NCBI GenBank assembly: GCA_029210915.1
Contig: JARGGJ010000018.1
Span: forward strand, 1-32,903
Direction: 5' to 3'
Length of the DNA: 32,903 nt
Source of the DNA: Patescibacteria group bacterium
Lineage (GTDB): Bacteria > Patescibacteriota > Patescibacteriia > 2-12-FULL-60-25
Shown here: piece by piece, positions 2,063 to 26,486 of the stretch
How positions within the stretch are numbered: position 1 is the first letter of the stretch
How the letters are laid out: each line of letters begins with the position of its first letter
Notes under the pieces: model-generated
Database searches by the model: none
Told to the model about the DNA's origin: nothing
What the model saw: the letters and a program-made list of their open reading frames with translations, nothing else
Program-made: the position numbers and the translations under genes

Positions 2063-2118
2063 GTGGCGAGGTAGCTCCACCCTTCGCGTAAAGCTTCGGG
2101 TGGCAAGCAGTTGGTTAG
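2063..2118 (+). pseudogene. 5' fragment of tRNA-Met split by a 31-nt hairpin
   Basis: Positions 2063-2077 equal 2164-2178, the flank and first 13 nt of the intact tRNA-Met. Positions 2109-2118 (AGTTGGTTAG) equal 2179-2188, the D loop. Between them sits a 31-nt insert (2078-2108) with stem CCACCC/GGGTGG (2077-2082, 2098-2103). The insertion point is between tRNA positions 13 and 14, where the D stem meets the D loop. No 3' half follows, so this is a relic. Confidence 0.85.
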
Positions 2119-2165: not shown

Positions 2166-2242
2166 GGCGAGGTAGCTCAGTTGGTTAGAGCGCGGGACTC
2201 ATAAGCCCGAGGTCGTGGGTTCGATCCCCACCCTCGCTACCA
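2166..2242 (+). tRNA. tRNA-Met(CAT), elongator
   Basis: Acceptor GGCGAGG (2166-2172) pairs with CCTCGCT (2232-2238) with one G-T pair at 1-72. D arm GCTC/GAGC, anticodon loop CTCATAA, T arm GTGGG-TTCGATC-CCCAC, and CCA is encoded (2240-2242). Position 31-39 is an A-G mismatch next to the loop. The paired 1-72 end separates it from the initiator tRNA at 3505. A CAT tRNA could also be the lysidine-modified tRNA-Ile; I prefer elongator Met. Confidence 0.9.
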
Positions 2243-2365
2243 CGTAAAAAGCCGCTTAGAATAATAGGCGGCTTTTTACGTGCCCCGTGATTAATGAAGC
2301 AATAGAATAATTACCGAAATTAATTTTACGGGGCAAAGCATCTATAAGTATCGGCTTCACGTGGT
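2241..2365 (+). repeat. tRNA-trailing structured unit, copy 1
   Basis: It begins with a 15-bp perfect hairpin, CACGTAAAAAGCCGC with its complement, starting in the tRNA CCA. A second stem pairs CCCCGT with ACGGGG. It ends with CGGCTTCACGTGG, which can pair back with the CCACGT at the tRNA end and so close the whole unit. This copy lacks the hairpin insertion found in copies 2 and 3 after GTGCCCCG. The leading hairpin with its T run probably also terminates the tRNA transcript. Confidence 0.75.
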
Positions 2366-2380
2366 ACAGCCCCTCCAAAT

Positions 2381-2528
2381 GCCGCTTAGAATAATAGGCG
2401 GCTTTTTACGTGCCCCGCGTAAAGTGACTTCGTCACTACGCGGCGCTGCCGTGATTATGAGTGAACGTGGATCTGATGGATATCAGATTTACATGGCTTA
2501 GTATTTATAGTACCGGCTTCACGTGGCA
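2381..2528 (+). repeat. tRNA-trailing structured unit, copy 2
   Basis: Same start (GCCGCTTAGAATAATAGGCG) and same end (CCGGCTTCACGTGGCAC) as copy 1. Relative to copy 1 it carries a 34-nt palindromic insert at 2418-2451 between GCCCCG and TGATTA, plus a palindrome at 2471-2488 (ATCTGAT-GGAT-ATCAGAT). Confidence 0.8.
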
Positions 2529-2537
2529 CTGCCCTAT

Positions 2538-3504: not shown

Positions 3505-3580
3505 CGCGGGGTAGAGCAGTTGGCAGCTCGCCAGGCCCATAACCTGGAGGTCGTAGGTTCAAGTCCTACCCCCGCAACCA
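3505..3580 (+). tRNA. Initiator tRNA-fMet(CAT) with C33
   Basis: Acceptor CGCGGGG (3505-3511) faces CCCCGCA (3570-3576), leaving the C1-A72 mismatch that marks bacterial initiators. A11-T24 in the D stem also fits an initiator. CCA is encoded. Two features are odd. The anticodon loop reads CCCATAA, so position 33 is C instead of the near-universal U. The stem is CCAGG/CCTGG, so base pair 29-41 is A-T and the usual run of three G-C pairs is reduced to two. Confidence 0.93.
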
Positions 3581-3737
3581 CGTAAAAAGCCGCTTAGAAT
3601 AATAGGCGGCTTTTTACGTGCCTCGCGTAAAGTGACTTCGTCACCACGCGACGCTGCCGTGATTATGAATGAACGTGGATCTGATGGATATCAGATTTAC
3701 GAGGCAAAGCATCTATAAGTACCGGCTTCACGTGGCA
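3577..3737 (+). repeat. tRNA-trailing structured unit, copy 3
   Basis: The same unit as behind tRNA-Met, now behind the initiator tRNA. It has the leading 15-bp hairpin, a 34-nt palindromic insert at 3626-3659 almost identical to that of copy 2, the ATCTGAT-GGAT-ATCAGAT palindrome (3679-3696), and the closing CCGGCTTCACGTGGCAC. Confidence 0.8.
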
Positions 3738-3812
3738 CGCCTTGTAAAAAGCCACATAGAATTTGTGGTTTTTTAGTTACAATAAATTTCAGTGGTGGCT
3801 TCACGTGGCGCC
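3738..3812 (+). repeat. tRNA-trailing unit, short copy 4, with terminator
   Basis: A hairpin AAAAAGCCACA...TGTGGTTTTTT (3746-3775) acts as a likely terminator. The copy ends with GTGGCTTCACGTGGCGCC, the same closing motif as the other units. Confidence 0.6.
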
Positions 3813-4744: not shown

Positions 4745-4851
4745 TATTCACGATCTATAATTTTTGACCGCTTTGCTGTTTAGCGGACCAAAGCATGTTT
4801 GATTCTTCTTTGCCGGACTTATACTTTAGCTCGGTCTTTTTTTTACCTTGA
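4745..4851 (-). pseudogene. Detached 3' remnant of a MazG-like gene
   Basis: Read on the minus strand, this stretch encodes KTELKYKSGKEESNMLW and continues about ten more codons to a stop. The pattern K-E-KYKSG-ESN-W matches the C-terminus of the intact MazG-like protein next door (KAEQKYKSGIKESNIPW). There is no start or N-terminal part. The remnant and the intact gene are separated by the inverted-repeat element 4862-4999. Confidence 0.65.
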
Positions 4852-4861
4852 TTAACTAATT

Positions 4862-4999
4862 GTCTGAACCTTGATTTTAGCTCATATTCACGCTCAAATT
4901 ATCTTGATTACTGTAGGAATTTCTTTTATATATGATTAGTCTTCAATAAGTAATCAAGATAATTAGGTCGGTAATCGGTTTTATAATCAAGGTTCAGAC
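4862..4999. mobile_element. Inverted-repeat element A (138 bp, no gene)
   Basis: Terminal inverted repeats are GTCTGAACCTTGATT at the left and its complement at the right. A second internal pair, AATTATCTTGATTACT, faces AGTAATCAAGATAATT. The left 58 bases are nearly the same as element C (14126 on). It resembles a MITE but no target duplication is clear. The right end overlaps the last codons of the MazG-like gene. Confidence 0.75.
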
Positions 5000-7384: not shown

Positions 7385-7474
7385 TGGCGGAGAGGTAGGG
7401 ATTCGAACCCTAGGTACCCGTAAAGGCACACCGCATTTCGAGTGCGGCCCATTCGACCACTCTGGCACCTCTCC
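7385..7474 (-). tRNA. tRNA-Ser(CGA), intact
   Basis: Class II tRNA. Acceptor GGAGAGG pairs with CCTCTCC, discriminator G, and CCA is encoded (7385-7387). The anticodon arm is CCGCA-CTCGAAA-TGCGG with anticodon CGA, reading UCG. It has a long variable arm and T arm TAGGG-TTCGAAT-CCCTA. A second, interrupted copy lies at 7749-7914. Confidence 0.95.
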
Positions 7475-7487
7475 GAAAACTTTAAAC

Positions 7488-7742
7488 TCAAGTTTGATTG
7501 ATAATATCTCTGTATTGTTGTTTTAGCAACCTTCTACCTTCGGTGGTTTTAAGAAATTTTTCACGCCTCTGCACATCCGTTTTTAAAGTATAGGCCTCAA
7601 AACCAATCAATACTGTAGGACGATGATTGCAAGTTGATGCGACTTTGCCGTTATTATGTTCCCCAATTCTTCTTTGAATATCACCAGTCGAACCTTTGTA
7701 AATGTTGCCATTATTGAGTTTTAGAAAGTAAACGTAATACAT
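7488..7742 (-). CDS. GIY-YIG nuclease-family protein
   Basis: 84 aa, a single GIY-YIG domain. YYVYFLK (2-8) and GNIYKGST (12-19) give the two tyrosine motifs, followed by Arg24-Arg25 and EHNNGK (28-33), then RREKFLKT. This is the common small orphan type. It is placed exactly between an intact tRNA-Ser gene and an interrupted tRNA-Ser copy, all on the same strand. The interrupted copy ends 7 nt before its ATG, and the intact tRNA begins 13 nt after its stop. This is compatible with insertion of a GIY-YIG plus tRNA segment at the 3' end of the older tRNA gene. Activity on tRNA genes is inference only. Confidence 0.85.
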   Translation of the reverse strand: MYYVYFLKLNNGNIYKGSTGDIQRRIGEHNNGKVASTCNHRPTVLIGFEAYTLKTDVQRREKFLKTTEGRRLLKQQYRDIINQT

Positions 7743-7748
7743 AGTTAT

Positions 7749-7914
7749 TAGGGATTCGTCCGGTCAGCCGACCGGACACCCAATCGGATGATTGGGCGAA
7801 CCCTAGGTACCCGTAAAGGCACACCGCATTTCGCCGAGTCATCCGACTCGGTGCAAGTGCGGCCCATTCGACCACTGCATCAGGTCGAATGACCTGGCTG
7901 GCACCTCTCCGAAT
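7749..7914 (-). pseudogene. tRNA-Ser(CGA) copy with palindromes in the D, anticodon and T loops
   Basis: Removing three inserts gives 82 nt with no difference from the intact tRNA-Ser at 7385-7474, but the 3' acceptor strand and CCA are missing. Insert 1 (7759-7798, 40 nt, T loop) holds two palindromes, CCGGTC-AGCC-GACCGG and CCCAATC-GGAT-GATTGGG. Insert 2 (7834-7855, 22 nt, between T33 and the anticodon) holds CCGAGTC-ATCC-GACTCGG. Insert 3 (7877-7897, 21 nt, between positions 13 and 14) holds CAGGTC-GAAT-GACCTG. All stems of the tRNA stay uninterrupted. It cannot make a normal tRNA. Confidence 0.9.
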
Positions 7915-7992
7915 TGCTTAATGCTAACGATTTTTTAAGTAAAAGTCAACTATTCGCAAATCTGTTTATTTACGCTATGCTGTAGATTCGAT

Positions 7993-11542: not shown

Positions 11543-11701
11543 GTCTGAACCTTGATTGCCACTCAGATTACAAACCTAATTTCCTCCATAGGCTGATCAG
11601 CCTCTGGCTGATACTTGATTACTAAATGTGGGTATTAAATATATACCTAAAGTAATCAAGTTAATATGTTCGAGAATCTGAGTGGCAATCAAGGTTCAGA
11701 C
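11543..11701. mobile_element. Inverted-repeat element B (159 bp, no gene)
   Basis: A 27-bp perfect terminal inverted repeat begins GTCTGAACCTTGATTGCC (11543-11569 and 11675-11701). An internal pair ACTTGATTACT (11613-11623) faces AGTAATCAAGT (11651-11661). A partial GTCTGAAC copy lies at 11530. The palindrome AGGCTGATCAGCCT at about 11590-11603 looks like an added hairpin. Confidence 0.82.
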
Positions 11702-11713
11702 AATAAGAAAATG

Positions 11714-11746
11714 AAAAACCCGCCGCGATGTGAATCGGGGCGGGGT
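11714..11746 (-). terminator. Terminator of the 11769-12635 gene
   Basis: On the minus strand CCCGCCCCGAT pairs with ATCGCGGCGGG, followed by TTTTT. Confidence 0.8.
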
Positions 11747-11768: not shown

Positions 11769-12635
11769 TTACAGATACCAGCGCCATCCCTTTGGGGACT
11801 TGGGGAACTCGAAGTTCCTGACTTGGCGCCGGTTGCGCTCGGGGCGGGGTTCGGCCTCCATGCTATACGGGATAGCCTGGACGGTGATACCGCAACCCGA
11901 TCCGTCGGGGGGACACGTTTCTGTGTCCACTACGAACATAGCTTTGTAGCCGGGCTTGATTAAGGTGACCCGGCTACCTGTCTTTGTTAGTAGTTCCACA
12001 AACGGACACGTTTCCGGTCGTGGAGGCGGGGGCAAGTGAGGCGAGTTCGACTCCATGCATTGGCCAACGAGTGGCTGCATGGTTGTGTAACCGGTCGTGC
12101 TCACCCACATGAATCGAGAGCCTCGGTTCTCGAACTGGAACATGTAGCCCGCGTTCCACGTTGCGTAGGCCGGACGATACGTCACGGTCCGCGCGTTGCG
12201 GAGTACCACACCCGGAGTACGCGACGGACCCATCGGCACACTGAGTGTGACGGGTTCGGGCTTGCGCTCGGGGGCGGGTTGTCTTTGTGCTTCACGCTCT
12301 GGCGCAGGCCGAGACGCCGGTTGACGAGCCGCGGGTTGCGGCTCACGCTTGGCGGAAGGTTGAGCCACCTGAGCCGGAGGCTCGGGTTTGGCTGGGGGTT
12401 GCACTGCCGGAGCCGGAGGCTCGGGCTTGGCAACTTCTTCGCTCTCGGCGACCTTGGCCTCGGCTTTTGCCTCGACCTTGGGAGCCGGCTCGGGAGTTGC
12501 CTCCTCGGAGCTTGCGACTCGCGTGGGAATATCCCACGCGCCCTTGGCGTCCAAGTCATTGGCGCTCTTGGCGCTGTTCTTTTGACAGCCAGTGATCAGA
12601 AGAGCGACAAAGAGAAAAATGAAATACTTTTTCAT
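11769..12635 (-). CDS. Lipoprotein with Pro/Ala/Glu linker and C-terminal globular domain
   Basis: 288 aa, no family recognised. The lipobox LITGC puts the lipidated Cys at 17. Residues about 45-130 are a low-complexity linker of PEPPA, KPEPPAQV and RQPAPERKPEP units, typical of a spacer through a cell envelope. The last 150 residues look folded, with aromatic and beta-type segments and four cysteines in two pairs (QCME, ETCPF, ETCPP, SGCGI). A GGAG ribosome site lies 8 nt before the ATG. It is the last gene of the GC-rich block and is 20 nt downstream of the next lipoprotein gene, so the two are probably cotranscribed. Confidence 0.8.
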   Translation of the reverse strand: MKKYFIFLFVALLITGCQKNSAKSANDLDAKGAWDIPTRVASSEEATPEPAPKVEAKAEAKVAESEEVAKPEPPAPAVQPPAKPEPPAQVAQPSAKREPQPAARQPASRPAPEREAQRQPAPERKPEPVTLSVPMGPSRTPGVVLRNARTVTYRPAYATWNAGYMFQFENRGSRFMWVSTTGYTTMQPLVGQCMESNSPHLPPPPRPETCPFVELLTKTGSRVTLIKPGYKAMFVVDTETCPPDGSGCGITVQAIPYSMEAEPRPERNRRQVRNFEFPKSPKGWRWYL

Positions 12636-12655
12636 GATTTAATCTCCAGTGCCGC

Positions 12656-13138
12656 TCAGCGGCAGTTGTTTTCGTTTTGGCACTCGACCAGGTCTTGGAC
12701 CGTTGCCGCCGTGTTTATCAGCAGATCGTGATCTGCGTTGTACTCGTTTGCGGTTCCGTTAGGATCCACAACCAGCGGAACGACACCATCCCTCGTGGGA
12801 CAGATTTGGATCGTGCGTCCATTCCCATCCTCGCCCACGGTGCAATTTACATGCGCCTTTGGAGGTGAGAGATAGATGGACGAACCCATACTGCCGGGCG
12901 TTACTCCTGTTGAATCCACAAACCCTCGAGACATGTAGCGTTGCTGTGCCTCTGGTTTTACTATTCTGGTTTCGACCGTCGAGGTTTGCCCACGGCTGTC
13001 CGTGGTCTCCTCGATTGTATGCTTGTGATATGGTGATTCATCATGCAGATTGTAGCTGCCGCCTGCGGACATACAGCCGCTCAAAGAAACAAGAAACAAG
13101 AAACAAGAAACAAACAGTGTAGCCGTTCGGGTATTCAT
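12656..13138 (-). CDS. Lipoprotein, 160 aa, signal peptide written in a heptamer repeat
   Basis: The frame is open to 13402, but AAAGGAG directly before the ATG at 13138 fixes the start. The lipobox LSGC gives lipidated Cys22. The hydrophobic core VSCFLFLVSL is encoded by about four tandem GTTTCTT heptamers. The mature part is polar, with no recognised domain; its Cys residues (NCTV, QICPTRDG, VECQNENNC) could form disulfides. It is followed after 20 nt by another lipoprotein gene. A strong promoter lies at 13245-13273 and a leader hairpin just upstream of the ribosome site. Confidence 0.82.
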   Translation of the reverse strand: MNTRTATLFVSCFLFLVSLSGCMSAGGSYNLHDESPYHKHTIEETTDSRGQTSTVETRIVKPEAQQRYMSRGFVDSTGVTPGSMGSSIYLSPPKAHVNCTVGEDGNGRTIQICPTRDGVVPLVVDPNGTANEYNADHDLLINTAATVQDLVECQNENNCR

Positions 13139-13153
13139 TTTTGATCTCCTTTC

Positions 13154-13179
13154 GGAGAGACGCGCCGTAGCGCGTCTCC
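13154..13179 (-). promoter_or_regulatory. Leader hairpin next to the ribosome site
   Basis: On the minus strand GAGACGCGC-TACG-GCGCGTCTC ends 3 nt before the AAAGGAG ribosome site. The TCTCC of its 3' arm could compete for GGAG. Confidence 0.6.
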
Positions 13180-13244
13180 ACCGTGTTGTTATGGTGCGAA
13201 TTCGCAATCTGGCCGGGTATGAACCTGGCTTGGATTGACGTGTA

Positions 13245-13273
13245 AATATAGCATAAAAAAGCCATTTTGTCAA
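13245..13273 (-). promoter_or_regulatory. Strong promoter of the lipoprotein pair
   Basis: Minus strand TTGACA, 17 nt, TATATT. The stretch TTTTTATGCTATATT is shared with the promoter at 17988-18016. Confidence 0.8.
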
Positions 13274-13352
13274 GGGTATTGAGGGCGTTATATTTGGTTC
13301 TGAACCTAGTTCAGAACTGCGATTATTTAAGTGGTTTTGGCTAAAATTAGGG

Positions 13353-13409
13353 TAAAAAAAAGACCCTCTTTGAGGGATTCGCAAGAGGCACGAGTCCGAC
13401 AAAGAGGGT
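13353..13409 (-). terminator. Terminator of the 13423-13977 gene, with a long loop
   Basis: On the minus strand ACCCTCTTTG pairs with CAAAGAGGGT and is followed by a run of T. The loop of nearly 30 nt is large for a terminator and may hold an inserted hairpin. Confidence 0.7.
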
Positions 13410-13422
13410 GAGAAAGGGTGGT

Positions 13423-13977
13423 TTAGTAGCCGGAGAGGTAGCCGCCACCGCCATAATAGGCGGGTTGGCCCCAGGTGGAACGTCGTTCACGGACCATGAC
13501 TTGCTCCATACAGAGGCTTTTTTCCTCACCTCCGGGGAGCTGACCAAGGCGATTGAGGCAGGATTCGTATTCACGGGTACGGCCATCGCAGTAGCCTGTT
13601 TGACTCATGCCATACTGGCCGAGACAGCCGTTGTAGAAACCGGCATAGGGAGTATTACCCCAAATGCGGGTTCGTTCTTCGGCATGGATGCGCTCGCGGG
13701 CGTAGCTATCTTCCGCGTCTCCGGGCAAGTCGCCGATTTCGGCTTTGTAGGCTTCGTAGCGCGATGTATCGCGCTTCACATGCAGATCCGAGCCCCAGGG
13801 GCCGTATTCTGCGCGGGTTTCCATGGTTTTGCGGCCATTTACCTCGGAGCTCATGGTGTTGGTGCTCCAACAACCCGTTGCAAATATTCCCAATGCCATC
13901 AAGAAACCCCACTTCGCCCCTCCATGCGTCAGGGCTACGAGGGGCAGGCAAGTTATAAACAACTGATATTTCCTCAT
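13423..13977 (-). CDS. Lipoprotein with an internally duplicated domain
   Basis: 184 aa, no family recognised. It has a long N-terminal region and lipobox FATGC at Cys36. The mature part holds two related units: residues about 74-118 (YEAYKAEIGDLPGDAED then ERTRIWGNTPYAGFY) and about 138-180 (YESCLNRLGQLPGGEEK then ERRSTWGQPAYYGGG). The shared core is LPG-E...RERR-WG-P-YYG. The second unit has extra Cys residues. Ribosome site AAAAGGAG lies 8 nt before the ATG. It has its own promoter (14081-14109) and terminator. Confidence 0.8.
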   Translation of the reverse strand: MRKYQLFITCLPLVALTHGGAKWGFLMALGIFATGCWSTNTMSSEVNGRKTMETRAEYGPWGSDLHVKRDTSRYEAYKAEIGDLPGDAEDSYARERIHAEERTRIWGNTPYAGFYNGCLGQYGMSQTGYCDGRTREYESCLNRLGQLPGGEEKSLCMEQVMVRERRSTWGQPAYYGGGGYLSGY

Positions 13978-14080
13978 TGTAGTCTCCTTTTGGATAGATG
14001 CGCCATAGCACGTTTTTTTCCGGTTTTTTGTTATGTGTTATGTGTTACATGCTACATGAATTTGTGAAGGTATGCTTATA

Positions 14081-14109
14081 AACGTAGCAGAAATATGGGG
14101 TTTTGTCAA
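14081..14109 (-). promoter_or_regulatory. Promoter of the 13423-13977 gene
   Basis: Minus strand TTGACA, 17 nt ending CTGC, TACGTT. Same design as the promoters at 13245 and 17988. Confidence 0.65.
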
Positions 14110-14125
14110 TATCCGTCTGAACCTT

Positions 14126-14459
14126 GTCTGAACCTTGATTTTAACTCATATTCACGCTCAAATTAACTTGATTACTGTGGGAGTTGATTTAAATAATATT
14201 AACCTTGGGGCGTATTCTTACTGTGCCGCTCTAAGCTTTAAGCGGAGTGTGGTGATCGCCGCGCTGTCGCCGTAGGCGGAACTGGAAAGCTGATGACAAA
14301 GCACGGATAACCACCCCACTTCATCAATCGATTACGAGGGGCACCGCAAGGGTTTATCCCTACTAATAAAACGGATAATCAAGAAAATTTGGTCAACAAT
14401 CAGTTTGATAATCCCCCTTCGCCAAAGGCTTCGGAGGGACACGGTCAAGGTTCAGACAG
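14126..14459. mobile_element. Inverted-repeat element C, interrupted by hairpins
   Basis: The left end is nearly the same as element A over about 58 bases (GTCTGAACCTTGATTTTA, then CTCATATTCACGCTCAAATT). The right end AAGGTTCAGAC is separated from its expected ATAATC neighbour by a 33-nt palindromic insert (14414-14446). The middle (14220-14360) holds further palindromes, for example CCGCTCTAAGCTTTAAGCGG, and no gene. An extra GTCTGAACCTT precedes it at 14115. Confidence 0.7.
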
Positions 14460-14473
14460 TAATAAATCAAGGT

Positions 14474-14508
14474 AAAAAAAATCCCCGCTCTTTCCTAGAG
14501 AGCGGGGG
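14474..14508 (-). terminator. Terminator of the 14531-17909 operon
   Basis: On the minus strand CCCCGCTCT pairs with AGAGCGGGG, followed by eight T. Confidence 0.88.
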
Positions 14509-14530
14509 TTAAGGTTAACACAAGGTGCGA

Positions 14531-16801
14531 TTAGCGACGGCGGGCGGCTGCAACTTCGTCACGCAGAGAAGGTGGAACCTTCAGTGGCTTGACTTTGCAT
14601 CCGGTGCCGCGAGGGGCGGTGGACGGGCGAGGTGCGTATTGATGAACGACGACTGTGCGCTGGGGGCGAGGTTTTGAATCGCTATCCCATGTCCAGAGGT
14701 CGTGCCACCAGGCACAGAAGCGATCCCACCTACTCAGAGGTTCCGGCAAGGTGCGGTCGAACTCGGCAGTTCGAATTACCTTACCGTAGTTGTGATTTAC
14801 CTGAGGCGAGCGGTCAGCGTTACGCATCAAGAGGCGATACTTGCCGGAAAAACTCTCCGGAACCTCGAAGTCTACGTTGTGCTGATACGCTACAATCTTA
14901 CCTTCTCTCTCCACAGGTGTAGTTTGTACTGACACCGGGAAATAGATTCCGGACTTTATGGCGGCCCTGGTTGGCATGAATTCTACCACTCCATAGGCCT
15001 TCTCCTTTGTCCAGAACTGTGCGGTCACCCTTCCGGTTTTATCCGGGGCGGGTGTTTGCCAAAGGATTTGAGCTGTTGCCCTGGCCGCTTCGCCGTTTAC
15101 CCGCACGTTTTTTACGACGTGTGGCGTATCCATAACGATGCGATACTCTCCGGAAAATGTTTCCAGTACCGAGAAATCAGCAAAGTTATGATACAAACCC
15201 GTTTTGCTACTTGGGTTTGGCAAAGACGAAAGCTCAATCACAACGTTCTCCTCATCATTCAACTTCGGTCTGGGCATGTAAAACTCTACTGAACCGGTTA
15301 CCGGTTCCGGAGTGTCAAACTCTACCCTAACCTTGCCGTTTTTGTGAGGATGAACAGCCTCTACGTGCCAAACTTCATCCTGAAGTGGCGGTAAGGCACG
15401 TCCGTTTACTGTGATGGCACGCAGAGCCAAAGCGTTTTGATGCGGATCCGGAGAAAACCTGTACGCACCATTACCGATTTGGCTATAGAATGCCGTGAAG
15501 AAGAAAAAGCATGCCAGCGATAAGGAAACAATCCAGAGCGCGAACGCCGGCCAAGAACCAAGGTATCTACCCAAGATGCTCTTGGGAGAACTGATGATTG
15601 GCGACTTGGCATCCTCGCCTTTAACGAACTCATTCGCGACCACGAAGGAGCGCTTGAGCAAGCGATTGGCGATGAAGGCAAAGAGAGCCAAACCAAGAGA
15701 AATCCACCAAGGAGGAGCCGGAATGTAACTAAGCCCATACCAGAAGTTTTCCAACTCCACCTGAATGTTACGCCCTGTAACGGTTTGCATACCGAAAGCC
15801 AAGGCAATCGCAACCATGCCTGCAATAGGCAGAACCTTGAAAGCGAGGTGCATTTTGCTGACACGCTCGTTCCAGGCAATTTCCTTGGCAAACGGACCCA
15901 TGCCACCGAACACGAATTCCATTAGACCTGTTGCCACGATCCCAAAAAGAATCATGACCGCCAAAAGCTGGCTCGGCCAAATGAAAATCGCCAAGTCGAA
16001 GATGATGATCGGAGTGAAGAGGACGGTGAACAGATACTTGATCTTGCTCGCGACATCTTCCTCATCCAATAGATCGATTTCGCCACCGATCGCTTGGAGA
16101 GCATTCTTGTTGAACTCGATGTTCAAGTCGATGCTCACGATCAGTTTTGCAATGAGCGTGGATGTGCGCTCCAAAAAGCGCGTACCCTTGACGATGATCC
16201 ACCCCAAGATGCTTGAAGTGGCAATCGCCATCACGCCATACATCACCTTGCTAAAGAATGCCAGCAAAATGATGACCTGTTGCTCACCATGGCTGTAGCC
16301 CGGGGCGTTTTCGAGCGCGTGGTACTCCAGGAGAGCACCCTGCGCCAGAAACCCAAACGATGTTAGTGCGAGCCAAGTGAGAGGGTGTGCGAGTGCGCTA
16401 AAGCGACCCCAACCGGCATAAACCGGGTTGGCTGTTGTGGTTGTCTTTCTGCAGACCGTCTCCGTCGTGGTTTCACGCGCGGAGGTGAGCAGGTTGAAGC
16501 CTGCCCAAAGCAACTGCCCCAAGGAAAGAAATGCGGGCAAAGCCCACATGTACCAAGGGACTTTGCTTTCTTCGATTGCTCGATAAATCAACCAACCCAG
16601 AGCCAACTCGGCGAACATTGCCAGAAGTGCCAGCTTCCAGAAAGTTCGAGCCAAGATAGACTGGAATATTTCGTTCCAGATTATGGCATAGTCGCGTGTC
16701 GCGGCTGCGTATTGGCGCAACCGTTTGAAAGCAATCCCGAAAAGCTGAGGCTGTGTGATAGCCAGCGCGATCGGGATGATGAAACCGAGTAGGTTGCCCA
16801 T
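14531..16801 (-). CDS. Polytopic membrane protein with repeated extracytoplasmic beta domain
   Basis: 756 aa, no family recognised. About nine hydrophobic segments lie between residues 55 and 440 (roughly 55-75, 83-105, 138-158, 175-205, a double segment 257-295, 320-340, 365-383 and 417-440). The last 300 residues are soluble. Two related beta-type units are visible: YHNFADFSVLETFSGEYRIV at about 537-556 and HNVDFEVPESFSGKYRLL at about 641-658. The tail (about 705-756) is basic and proline rich. A GGAG site lies before the ATG. It starts 20 nt after the stop of the 369-aa gene and ends before a strong terminator, so these two form an operon and perhaps a complex. Confidence 0.82.
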   Translation of the reverse strand: MGNLLGFIIPIALAITQPQLFGIAFKRLRQYAAATRDYAIIWNEIFQSILARTFWKLALLAMFAELALGWLIYRAIEESKVPWYMWALPAFLSLGQLLWAGFNLLTSARETTTETVCRKTTTTANPVYAGWGRFSALAHPLTWLALTSFGFLAQGALLEYHALENAPGYSHGEQQVIILLAFFSKVMYGVMAIATSSILGWIIVKGTRFLERTSTLIAKLIVSIDLNIEFNKNALQAIGGEIDLLDEEDVASKIKYLFTVLFTPIIIFDLAIFIWPSQLLAVMILFGIVATGLMEFVFGGMGPFAKEIAWNERVSKMHLAFKVLPIAGMVAIALAFGMQTVTGRNIQVELENFWYGLSYIPAPPWWISLGLALFAFIANRLLKRSFVVANEFVKGEDAKSPIISSPKSILGRYLGSWPAFALWIVSLSLACFFFFTAFYSQIGNGAYRFSPDPHQNALALRAITVNGRALPPLQDEVWHVEAVHPHKNGKVRVEFDTPEPVTGSVEFYMPRPKLNDEENVVIELSSLPNPSSKTGLYHNFADFSVLETFSGEYRIVMDTPHVVKNVRVNGEAARATAQILWQTPAPDKTGRVTAQFWTKEKAYGVVEFMPTRAAIKSGIYFPVSVQTTPVEREGKIVAYQHNVDFEVPESFSGKYRLLMRNADRSPQVNHNYGKVIRTAEFDRTLPEPLSRWDRFCAWWHDLWTWDSDSKPRPQRTVVVHQYAPRPSTAPRGTGCKVKPLKVPPSLRDEVAAARRR

Positions 16802-16820
16802 TTCTTATCTCCTTATCTGG

Positions 16821-17909
16821 TCATGGACCAGGTGTGATTTTTGTCTTTAGTGCACTCAGCATGGATTTGATCCAACTAAAAAAGCCACCAGTGGACGTCC
16901 TACGAATTTTTGCGAGCTTCCGGTGACGAATGAACTCGTTCACCTTGGCATCCACCTTGCTCATGAACTTAGGTTCATCGAGCAGGCGTTTGATGAAGGC
17001 TTGGTTTCGTTCTGCGACCATGTTGAAATCTGTGACGCCTCGCAGACTTTCTGATTCTTGGCGATACCTATCCAAGTCGCCACTAGCGACAAGTCGCTCC
17101 ACGTAAGCTTCGGGAACCTCGTGTTGGTCCTTGAAGTCGGGGAGTTCGAGTTCTTCATAAGGGAACAAATCCTTGATTCCCTTGTCGAATGCTTCAATCA
17201 CAGCTTTGCCCGACTCCACAACCTGCTTGACCCCTTTTTCGAATTCCTTCTTGGGGTCGGCTTTGGGCTCGGGTTCGAGGTAGACTTTGAGACGATTTAG
17301 GAAATCATTACTTCTCGCCTCATCATCAGCACCTTCGACGTTGGCAAGTGCGCTACCAATCATGTCAACCGTCTTGACGCGTTCACGAAACTGGTTCCAT
17401 ACACCGTGATTTTTTTCGCTCATGGCCATAACCAATTTTTCGAGCATCTTACGCTGATAATCATTCAGCCTCGGAACAATACGTTCCTCGAAAGACAGTT
17501 CTTGATACTGTTGATCGAGTACGCGAACTTCTTCGCTCAAATCGCGCTTAAGCTCTCTGAGCTTCAAAGAACGCTCAGCATCATCCTTGATGATGAGTGC
17601 GCCATGCGTCTTATCCAGGTATTTATCTATCAATAGCTCTAGCTTTTCATTATAGCTCTTGGGCATATTCTCTTTTCGAAGCTCATTTTTGAAAAGCCCC
17701 GAAAGTTTTTGAACATCCGTCGAATCAACCTCGTCCCCAGAGAGCTTACCAAGTCCACTCAAAGCAGCTTTTGCAAAGCTAATAATCTTGCCCGCTCCAT
17801 GAAAAGCGGATTGAGTGAAAGCAATGGCGATCAACTCAGGCATTATATTCTTAAATTCGTCAAATGCCACTTTTCGATACTTCGGAGTTGCGGTTGTGCT
17901 CTTAGCCAT
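16821..17909 (-). CDS. Cytosolic helical protein, partner of the polytopic protein
   Basis: 362 aa from the ATG at 17909, which follows AGGAG at proper spacing; the frame continues to 17930. No family recognised. There is no signal peptide. The middle is strongly charged and helical (about residues 95-185, rich in KLRELKRDL and QQYQEL patterns), probably coiled coil. A short hydrophobic stretch occurs near residue 25-50 and the C-terminus ends in FFSWIKSMLSALKTKI, an amphipathic helix that could touch the membrane. First gene of a two-gene operon with the polytopic protein. Confidence 0.8.
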   Translation of the reverse strand: MAKSTTATPKYRKVAFDEFKNIMPELIAIAFTQSAFHGAGKIISFAKAALSGLGKLSGDEVDSTDVQKLSGLFKNELRKENMPKSYNEKLELLIDKYLDKTHGALIIKDDAERSLKLRELKRDLSEEVRVLDQQYQELSFEERIVPRLNDYQRKMLEKLVMAMSEKNHGVWNQFRERVKTVDMIGSALANVEGADDEARSNDFLNRLKVYLEPEPKADPKKEFEKGVKQVVESGKAVIEAFDKGIKDLFPYEELELPDFKDQHEVPEAYVERLVASGDLDRYRQESESLRGVTDFNMVAERNQAFIKRLLDEPKFMSKVDAKVNEFIRHRKLAKIRRTSTGGFFSWIKSMLSALKTKITPGP

Positions 17910-25987: not shown

Positions 25988-26486
25988 CAATTTGAACCTT
26001 GATTAAACTTGATTTTCCTTGATTAACCCTGATTACTTAAGGGGTTTAATTTATTGTTATGTATTCGCTTAAACTCCAGGCTTTTAGCTCCGAAGTTTAT
26101 CAGCAGACCAATTTCGACATTATACGTTTCCAAATAATTCATCGCTTGTGCAAAATGGACATCTTCCAATTTTGATTGGGCTTTAATTTCTACCATAATT
26201 GAATTTTCCACAAAGAAATCTACTCTGCGAGTTCCTATCTTATGCCCATCATAGGTAATGAGCATTTCTTTCTCTCTCTCGAATGCTAAGCCTCTTTTTT
26301 CCATTTCAATTGCCAACGCTCTTTGATAAATTACTTCTTGAAAACCATTCCTAAGTTTGGTATGCACTCTCATCGCAGAGCCAACTATTGTATGTGTGAT
26401 TTCGCGGTAGTCCGTCATATATAAATAATCCCATCACAAAGTAATTATGGCAAATCGTGGTTAATCAAGTTTAATCAAGGTTCAGA
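25988..26486. mobile_element. Inverted-repeat element D carrying a GxxExxY gene
   Basis: The left arm is TGAACCTTGATTAAACTTGATT and the right arm GGTTAATCAAGTTTAATCAA then GGTTCAGAC, the same terminal family as elements A-C. It holds exactly one gene. The right end supplies the stop of YchF and the left end lies just upstream of the -10 of the solute-binding gene. Confidence 0.75.
26023..26418 (-). CDS. GxxExxY protein (PD-(D/E)XK-like)
   Basis: 131 aa. The family signature GFQEVIY is at about 25-31. Later motifs are RVDFFVENSIMVEIKA, with the acidic-then-ExK arrangement of PD-(D/E)XK nucleases, and GLLINFGAKSLEFKRI at the end. The molecular role of the family is not established. It is the only gene of element D. 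On the minus strand TTGCCA, 17 nt, GATTAT precedes the ATG by a few bases, so it has a promoter of its own and is probably leaderless. Confidence 0.88.
   Translation of the reverse strand: MTDYREITHTIVGSAMRVHTKLRNGFQEVIYQRALAIEMEKRGLAFEREKEMLITYDGHKIGTRRVDFFVENSIMVEIKAQSKLEDVHFAQAMNYLETYNVEIGLLINFGAKSLEFKRIHNNKLNPLSNQG

Follow-up and report, generated by a model that had tools for sequence, protein, structure and literature searches.

Integrative elements at tRNA genes leave an insert flanked by one intact tRNA and a partial copy. SegB of phages T4/T6 is a free-standing GIY-YIG homing endonuclease (excerpts of PMC13096335 and reference 26 therein), which, according to the same excerpts of PMC13096335, cuts within tRNA genes at the motif RAWTSGAAC and drives tandem duplication of the tRNA-segB unit. 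Mobile hairpin elements are described from mitochondria, where they include the GC clusters of yeast, for which endonuclease-driven mobility has been suggested (excerpts of PMC4478555), the repetitive hairpin-forming elements of sponges, with conserved stems and variable loops (excerpts of PMC2800124), and double-hairpin elements. In CPR bacteria, rRNA genes carry LAGLIDADG-bearing insertions, reported in a study that judged GIY-YIG to be sparse and outside homing and did not mention tRNA (PMC11270868).

The window analysed here (the whole stretch of 32,903 nt) contains partial copies of tRNA-Ser(CGA) and tRNA-Met, termed relics, which are interrupted by hairpins and lie beside intact genes (Table 1). 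The Ser relic (7910-7749, minus strand) comprises positions 1-79 of the 90-nt tRNA, with 79/79 bases identical, and is interrupted exactly at 13/14, in the anticodon loop at 34/35 and, by a double hairpin, in the T loop (69-71). It folds far better than shuffled sequences (z -4.7). The gene between this relic and the intact tRNA has the GIY-YIG domain of a free-standing homing endonuclease and, as judged by residue conservation, keeps the catalytic Tyr, Arg, His and Glu. Such loci probably belong to a family of mobile GIY-YIG elements that combine a nuclease gene or its remnant, an intact tRNA and a hairpin-bearing partial tRNA copy, with a hairpin type that differs by clade. Comparison of loci establishes the layout, its recurrence, the covariation of the hairpins, their association with the nuclease and the empty sites. 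No report of hairpin-bearing tRNA relics tied to GIY-YIG genes was found in the open-access literature, and the family is widespread and apparently undescribed.

Table 1. Coordinates of the features at the tRNA-Met and tRNA-Ser(CGA) loci of the window.
Feature	Position	Strand	Remarks
tRNA-Met relic, positions 1-13, GGCGAGGTAGCTC	2065..2077	+	same as intact gene 2166-2178
31-nt hairpin insert of Met relic, CACCCTTCGCGTAAAGCTTCGGGTGGCAAGC, core C type, arms CCACCC / GGGTGG	2078..2108	+	
tRNA-Met relic, positions 14-23, AGTTGGTTAG	2109..2118	+	
Intact tRNA-Met(CAT), parent of the relic	2166..2242	+	ARAGORN; Rfam 69 bits
Intact tRNA-Ser(CGA)	7385..7474	-	ARAGORN
Single-domain GIY-YIG nuclease gene, 84 aa, between relic and intact tRNA	7488..7742	-	PF01541 E 1.2e-12
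tRNA-Ser relic, positions 70-79, end of T arm, without acceptor 3' strand	7749..7758	-	
T-loop double hairpin hp1+hp2, core A	7759..7798	-	covariance model E 2.8e-16, this hairpin being one of the 20 sequences from which the model was built
tRNA-Ser relic, positions 35-69	7799..7833	-	
Anticodon-loop hairpin CCGAGTC-GGAT-GACTCGG, core A inverted	7834..7855	-	
tRNA-Ser relic, positions 14-34	7856..7876	-	
D-loop hairpin CCAGGTC-ATTC-GACCTGATGC, core A	7877..7897	-	
tRNA-Ser(CGA) relic, positions 1-13	7898..7910	-	
Host tRNA-Ser upstream region, TTGACTTTT..TTAGCAT..AGCAATTC	7911..7949	-	also conserved at the empty site of sister genome G008; putative promoter

The intact tRNA and partial copy flanking an insert recall integrative elements, but here the insert measures ~0.3 kb, no integrase is seen in it and the partial copy carries hairpins. 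The likeness to SegB extends to a GIY-YIG nuclease beside tRNA genes of many isotypes and to microhomology linking the 5' end of the tRNA with the 3' end of segB, which resembles the overlaps of nuclease and tRNA found here; however, SegB is phage-borne and the excerpts mention neither hairpins nor hairpin-capped tRNA fragments (PMC13096335), whereas the present gene is bacterial, ~84 aa long and limited to the GIY-YIG domain. When reverse-complemented, the SegB motif RAWTSGAAC reads as GTTCSAWTY, which appears to be the T-loop consensus in which the core-A double hairpin is lodged. Only three phage proteins matched the nuclease, weakly (~35% identical at best) and none named SegB, and the exact core-A pattern was absent from the viral contigs searched; a phage origin was rejected on these two counts. 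The LAGLIDADG insertions of CPR bacteria likewise bring homing endonucleases into essential RNA genes, and in the same bacteria, but they occupy rRNA rather than tRNA genes and are intron-like (PMC11270868). Mitochondrial elements share the short and sometimes double hairpins, although the excerpts of PMC4478555 and PMC2800124 link them neither to a nuclease clade alongside nor to tRNA copies, and the sponge elements have conserved stems and varying loops where the present ones have fixed loops and varying stems (excerpts of PMC2800124). A mobile hairpin element of the mitochondrial type is ruled out by this conservation of loops over stems and by matches that adjoin tRNA genes instead of being dispersed genome-wide. 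Group I and II introns are excluded by the lack of a ribozyme core, Rfam giving only tRNA matches in the window and six element loci, and an intron splitting a functional tRNA is excluded because the relics are without one tRNA end and have an intact copy alongside. A REP element mobilised by a RAYT or an IS200-IS605 transposase was also rejected, as the search for a Y1 transposase gave no PF01797 match in the 98% complete genome.

The Met relic (2065-2118) represents positions 1-23, interrupted after position 13 by the 31-nt hairpin; it equals the intact tRNA-Met at 2166-2242 in 23/23 tRNA bases, with the intact gene 48 bp downstream. The first-pass annotation had placed the breaks of both relics at the 13/14 junction and called their hairpins unrelated in sequence. 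The hairpins are indeed unrelated and the Ser break is exact, with two further insert sites in the same relic (34/35 and the T loop), while the Met boundary slides by one base and may equally be read as 12/13. The annotation overlooked that a GIY-YIG gene is present, that hairpin cores are clade-specific and that an intact tRNA is paired with a partial one. Folded in isolation, the Met fragment is not unusually stable (z -1.3). Hairpins of the same core C type also interrupt two other relics of this genome, those of Phe (L032) and Ala-ggc (L041), and the Met relic of sister genome G007. No nuclease gene separates relic from tRNA in the case of Met, Phe and Ala, and elsewhere core C occurs immediately 3' of tRNA CCA ends, so that the tie of these three relics to the nuclease family rests on hairpin type. 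The Met relic is present in this genome (G000) and G007 and missing from seven other members of the genus (2/9), and each relic matches its own host's tRNA (GGCGAGG versus GGCGGGG). As one part of the explanation given above, the Met relic is probably a nuclease-less ('solo') copy of this tRNA-gene element family. A structured repeat, CACGTAAAAAG..CTTTTTACGTGCCCCGT..ACGGGGCA..TTCACGTGGCACAGCC, lies 3' of both tRNA-Met genes (window 2241-2534 and 3579-3743) and is perhaps another solo derivative; a similar architecture occurs after other tRNA genes and before GIY-YIG genes in other genera (L137, L139, L142, L145 and L146).

Partial tRNA copies are widespread in this genome (1.455 Mb, 49 contigs, 98% complete, 47 tRNA genes), in which the relic search covered 509 kb around tRNA genes, ~1/3 of the genome, and was supplemented by whole-genome searches. 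They adjoin the genes for Met, Phe, Ala(GGC), Thr(GGT), Lys (two), Arg(CCG), Arg(GCG) (two), Ser(TGA), Ser(GCT), Ser(CGA) and Trp. A whole-genome search with PF01541 gave 12 matches, one of them a 440-aa UvrC-like protein; with this set aside, all 11 small GIY-YIG genes lie within ~400 bp of a tRNA gene, 10 of them co-directionally, against a chance expectation of ~0.5 of 11 (~4% of the genome lies within 600 bp of a tRNA gene). The eleventh, at 1669-1932 on the minus strand beside the Met relic, groups with a YhbQ-like clade mostly without co-directional tRNAs and may be an ordinary gene. Across the fetched loci of this genome and its relatives, 57/107 GIY-YIG ORFs called by HMM have co-directional tRNA neighbours and 5 have opposite ones.

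Several other repeats were observed in the survey. Two tandem 3' half-copies of tRNA-Lys, with the terminator repeated, follow an intact gene (L036:10061-10288); both bear anticodon-loop hairpins, the second also a T-loop hairpin, and no nuclease gene lies between. Perfect hairpins GTCCGAT-GAAT-ATCGGAC sit inside the loop of bigger palindromes just 3' of tRNA genes (L033:5689-5706 and L042:1421-1438), so the nesting of a hairpin in a loop is not confined to tRNA arms. Within the window, scattered inverted repeats with the unit TGAACCTTGATT / AATCAAGGTTCA border short stretches (4848-4999, 11543-11715, 14124-14481 and 25993-26484) and look like another palindromic repeat family, and the region 12000-17000, with a G+C of 0.49-0.59 versus ~0.43 elsewhere, is possibly acquired DNA.

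Two arrangements of the element recur among 38 relatives and 59 named loci; the homologous loci were collected by nuclease similarity, which over-samples core A. In the first, a hairpin-bearing 5' tRNA fragment is followed by the GIY-YIG gene and the intact tRNA, and the end of the ORF touches or overlaps the tRNA start; in the second, the intact tRNA is followed by the nuclease gene and a hairpin-bearing 3' fragment, and the TAG within the relic's D-loop GGCTAG/GGATAG often supplies the stop codon. The nuclease lies just 5' of an intact tRNA at 54 loci, 39 of which have the start of a relic, with strong hairpins in 32/39 (6.1 expected). A single relic can carry up to four hairpins, and in G006 copies of the tRNA-Pro(GGG) 3' part, along with its terminator, lie on either side of the nuclease gene. 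The same nuclease clade and hairpins are found beside many tRNA isotypes, mainly in Patescibacteria: closely related nucleases adjoin Ser, Lys, Gly, Tyr, Ile, Glu, Arg, Gln, Leu and other tRNAs, and every one is accompanied by a piece of the tRNA at its own locus. This piece therefore either derives from the gene at that site or is kept matched to it. The catalytic residues Y5, Y15, R25, H29 and E61 are kept in 93-98% of 94 tRNA-linked members, so the nuclease is probably active. At L141:1123-1790, a unit of nuclease and 3' tRNA-Pro relic is tandemly duplicated, which recalls the segmental amplification driven by SegB.

The hairpins themselves follow the nuclease lineages. Core-A nucleases are preceded by a pair, hp1-hp2, of the form stem-RTC-ATNC-GAY-stem and then, inverted, stem-RTC-GNAT-GAY-stem, usually at the T loop GGTT[..]CGAATCC. 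Arm pairs 3, 4, 5 and 7 vary with compensation around the invariant TC-ATNC-GA core; for example, pair 4 is Watson-Crick in 29/32 cases versus a shuffle mean of 11.7 and maximum of 20, in a test anchored on the loop and two closing pairs only, and the outer pairs covary far above shuffles. The covariation count of alignment A1, whose sequences were pre-selected for stems, agrees. Other clades have the cores B (CGATGNNCATCG), C (TTCGC..AAAGCTTCG) and D (GATC..CGTAG). On a tree of 156 proteins, which has few columns and many weak forks and in which regex-based core labels cover 61/156 loci, hairpin core changes 14 times versus a shuffled mean of 25.5 (0/200 as low). Core A occurs in 28/37 members of one clade with 97% support, core D is found mostly within one clade with 98% support, and a separate GIY-YIG clade of 30 members, serving as an internal control, has no tRNA neighbours. 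A covariance model of the core-A pair, built from the hairpin only, found matches in 38/144 genomes of the class. Of the 30 best-per-genome loci that were fetched, 24 lay within 700 nt of a tRNA gene, many of them inside relics of that tRNA, and 12 lay beside a GIY-YIG ORF, indicating that solo copies are common. Core-C hairpins also cluster, 7/10 matches lying within 400 nt of tRNA genes (~4 matches are expected overall from shuffling), which speaks against their being general dispersed repeats.

Could the hairpin-capped relic be a working RNA, that is, a tRNA-like 5' leader controlling translation of the nuclease or processing of the downstream tRNA, with loops used because they are the only part that can be extended while the fold stays intact? 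Several relics stop as soon as a T or anticodon arm has been completed, with the nuclease start codon following within a few bases, and this idea would also accommodate the stable fold of the Ser relic and the covarying stems, the latter from sequences pre-selected for stems. However, relics placed 3' of the nuclease gene bear hairpins as well and cannot be its leader, and solo relics have no nuclease gene to control, making such a role unlikely.

Alignment to the neighbouring tRNA identified 88 relics in the surroundings of 203 tRNA genes, and three sets of shuffled flanks yielded none, so the relics are not chance matches. Clean inserts were placed on cloverleafs in 73 cases, of which 57 contain a perfect hairpin (15.1 expected). 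The D, anticodon and T loops hold 47.2 of 71 inserts versus 30.7 expected, with a z-score of 4.0 that is generous because the counts pool related loci. We consider it quite improbable that these are neutral dispersed palindromes that land anywhere, go unremoved in dead tRNA copies and show a mild loop bias. The sampled genome has an excess of short hairpins, 14/73 inserts lie in stems and the loop preference is significant without being absolute, all of which such palindromes would explain; they would not explain the gathering of core-C hairpins and core-A model matches at tRNA genes, or a core A that is tied to one nuclease clade across phyla and has compensated stems. It is very unlikely that the hairpins are scars, formed where the nuclease repeatedly cuts the spare copy in its loops and palindromic filler remains after end-joining: inserts do sit in the loops of the redundant copy, up to four per relic, and the SegB motif (excerpts of PMC13096335) appears to equal the T loop, but an unchanged loop core and compensated stems would not be expected of filler in different phyla. 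The first-pass annotation favoured targeted insertion at the 13/14 junction, guided by structure or by the motif AGTGG/AGTTGG. Its view of insertion as recurrent, structured and non-random stands, as does a preference for loops, whereas the single site and the motif do not, inserts recurring at several other positions (17/18 in Pro of three genomes, 20-26, 32-36 and the T loop). A mechanism aimed at that junction or motif is scarcely credible: 6/13 inserts of this genome are placeable at positions 12-14, but only 13/73 overall, and other loops are used as often.

The presence of elements is sporadic at conserved loci, with empty sites in relatives, as for Ser(CGA) in G008 and for the Met relic. 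In G008, an uninterrupted tRNA-Ser(CGA) stands between matching flanks, and its upstream region corresponds to the sequence 5' of the relic in G000 (89/109 aligned bases identical) and not to the one preceding the intact gene. At tRNA-Pro(GGG) of G003, both halves of the relic conform to what is usual in the genus, and the intact copy differs in acceptor and T-stem pairs and has no encoded CCA, suggesting, at this one locus, that the intact copy is a replaced tRNA. Many relics are near-identical to the adjoining tRNA, which calls for recency, gene conversion or selection.

For the mobile GIY-YIG element family, cutting, copying, a protective role of the hairpins and movement of solo copies in trans would, by analogy with SegB, fit together as follows. 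The nuclease would break a tRNA gene, probably at the T loop in the case of core-A nucleases, and repair would copy the nuclease gene in and duplicate part of the local tRNA, leaving one full tRNA. The hairpin pair, which probably serves as a binding or end structure belonging to the element itself, would sit at the cut loops of the redundant copy and make this spare neither a target nor a tRNA. The intact tRNA keeps the same loops, so its escape, like that of the other tRNAs, must depend on more than loop sequence. The hairpin and partial tRNA could persist without the nuclease gene, either lost or inserted in trans, as at tRNA-Met. A more far-reaching possibility, advanced tentatively, is that each GIY-YIG lineage recognises its own hairpin pair, lodges in tRNA loops and always leaves or carries a working tRNA, and would thus form a new class of bacterial mobile element, a natural 'cleave-and-rescue' system with hairpin-only copies moved in trans.

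If this is right, many small GIY-YIG genes of Patescibacteria, and of some Omnitrophota, Kiritimatiellae and others, would be selfish elements that feed on essential tRNA genes. They would be a bacterial counterpart of SegB, with nuclease-specific hairpins as an added part for which no description was found for homing endonucleases in the open-access literature. Their activity would explain the tRNA fragments found near tRNA genes and may provide a case from nature in which an essential gene is cut and the rescue copy supplied along with it.
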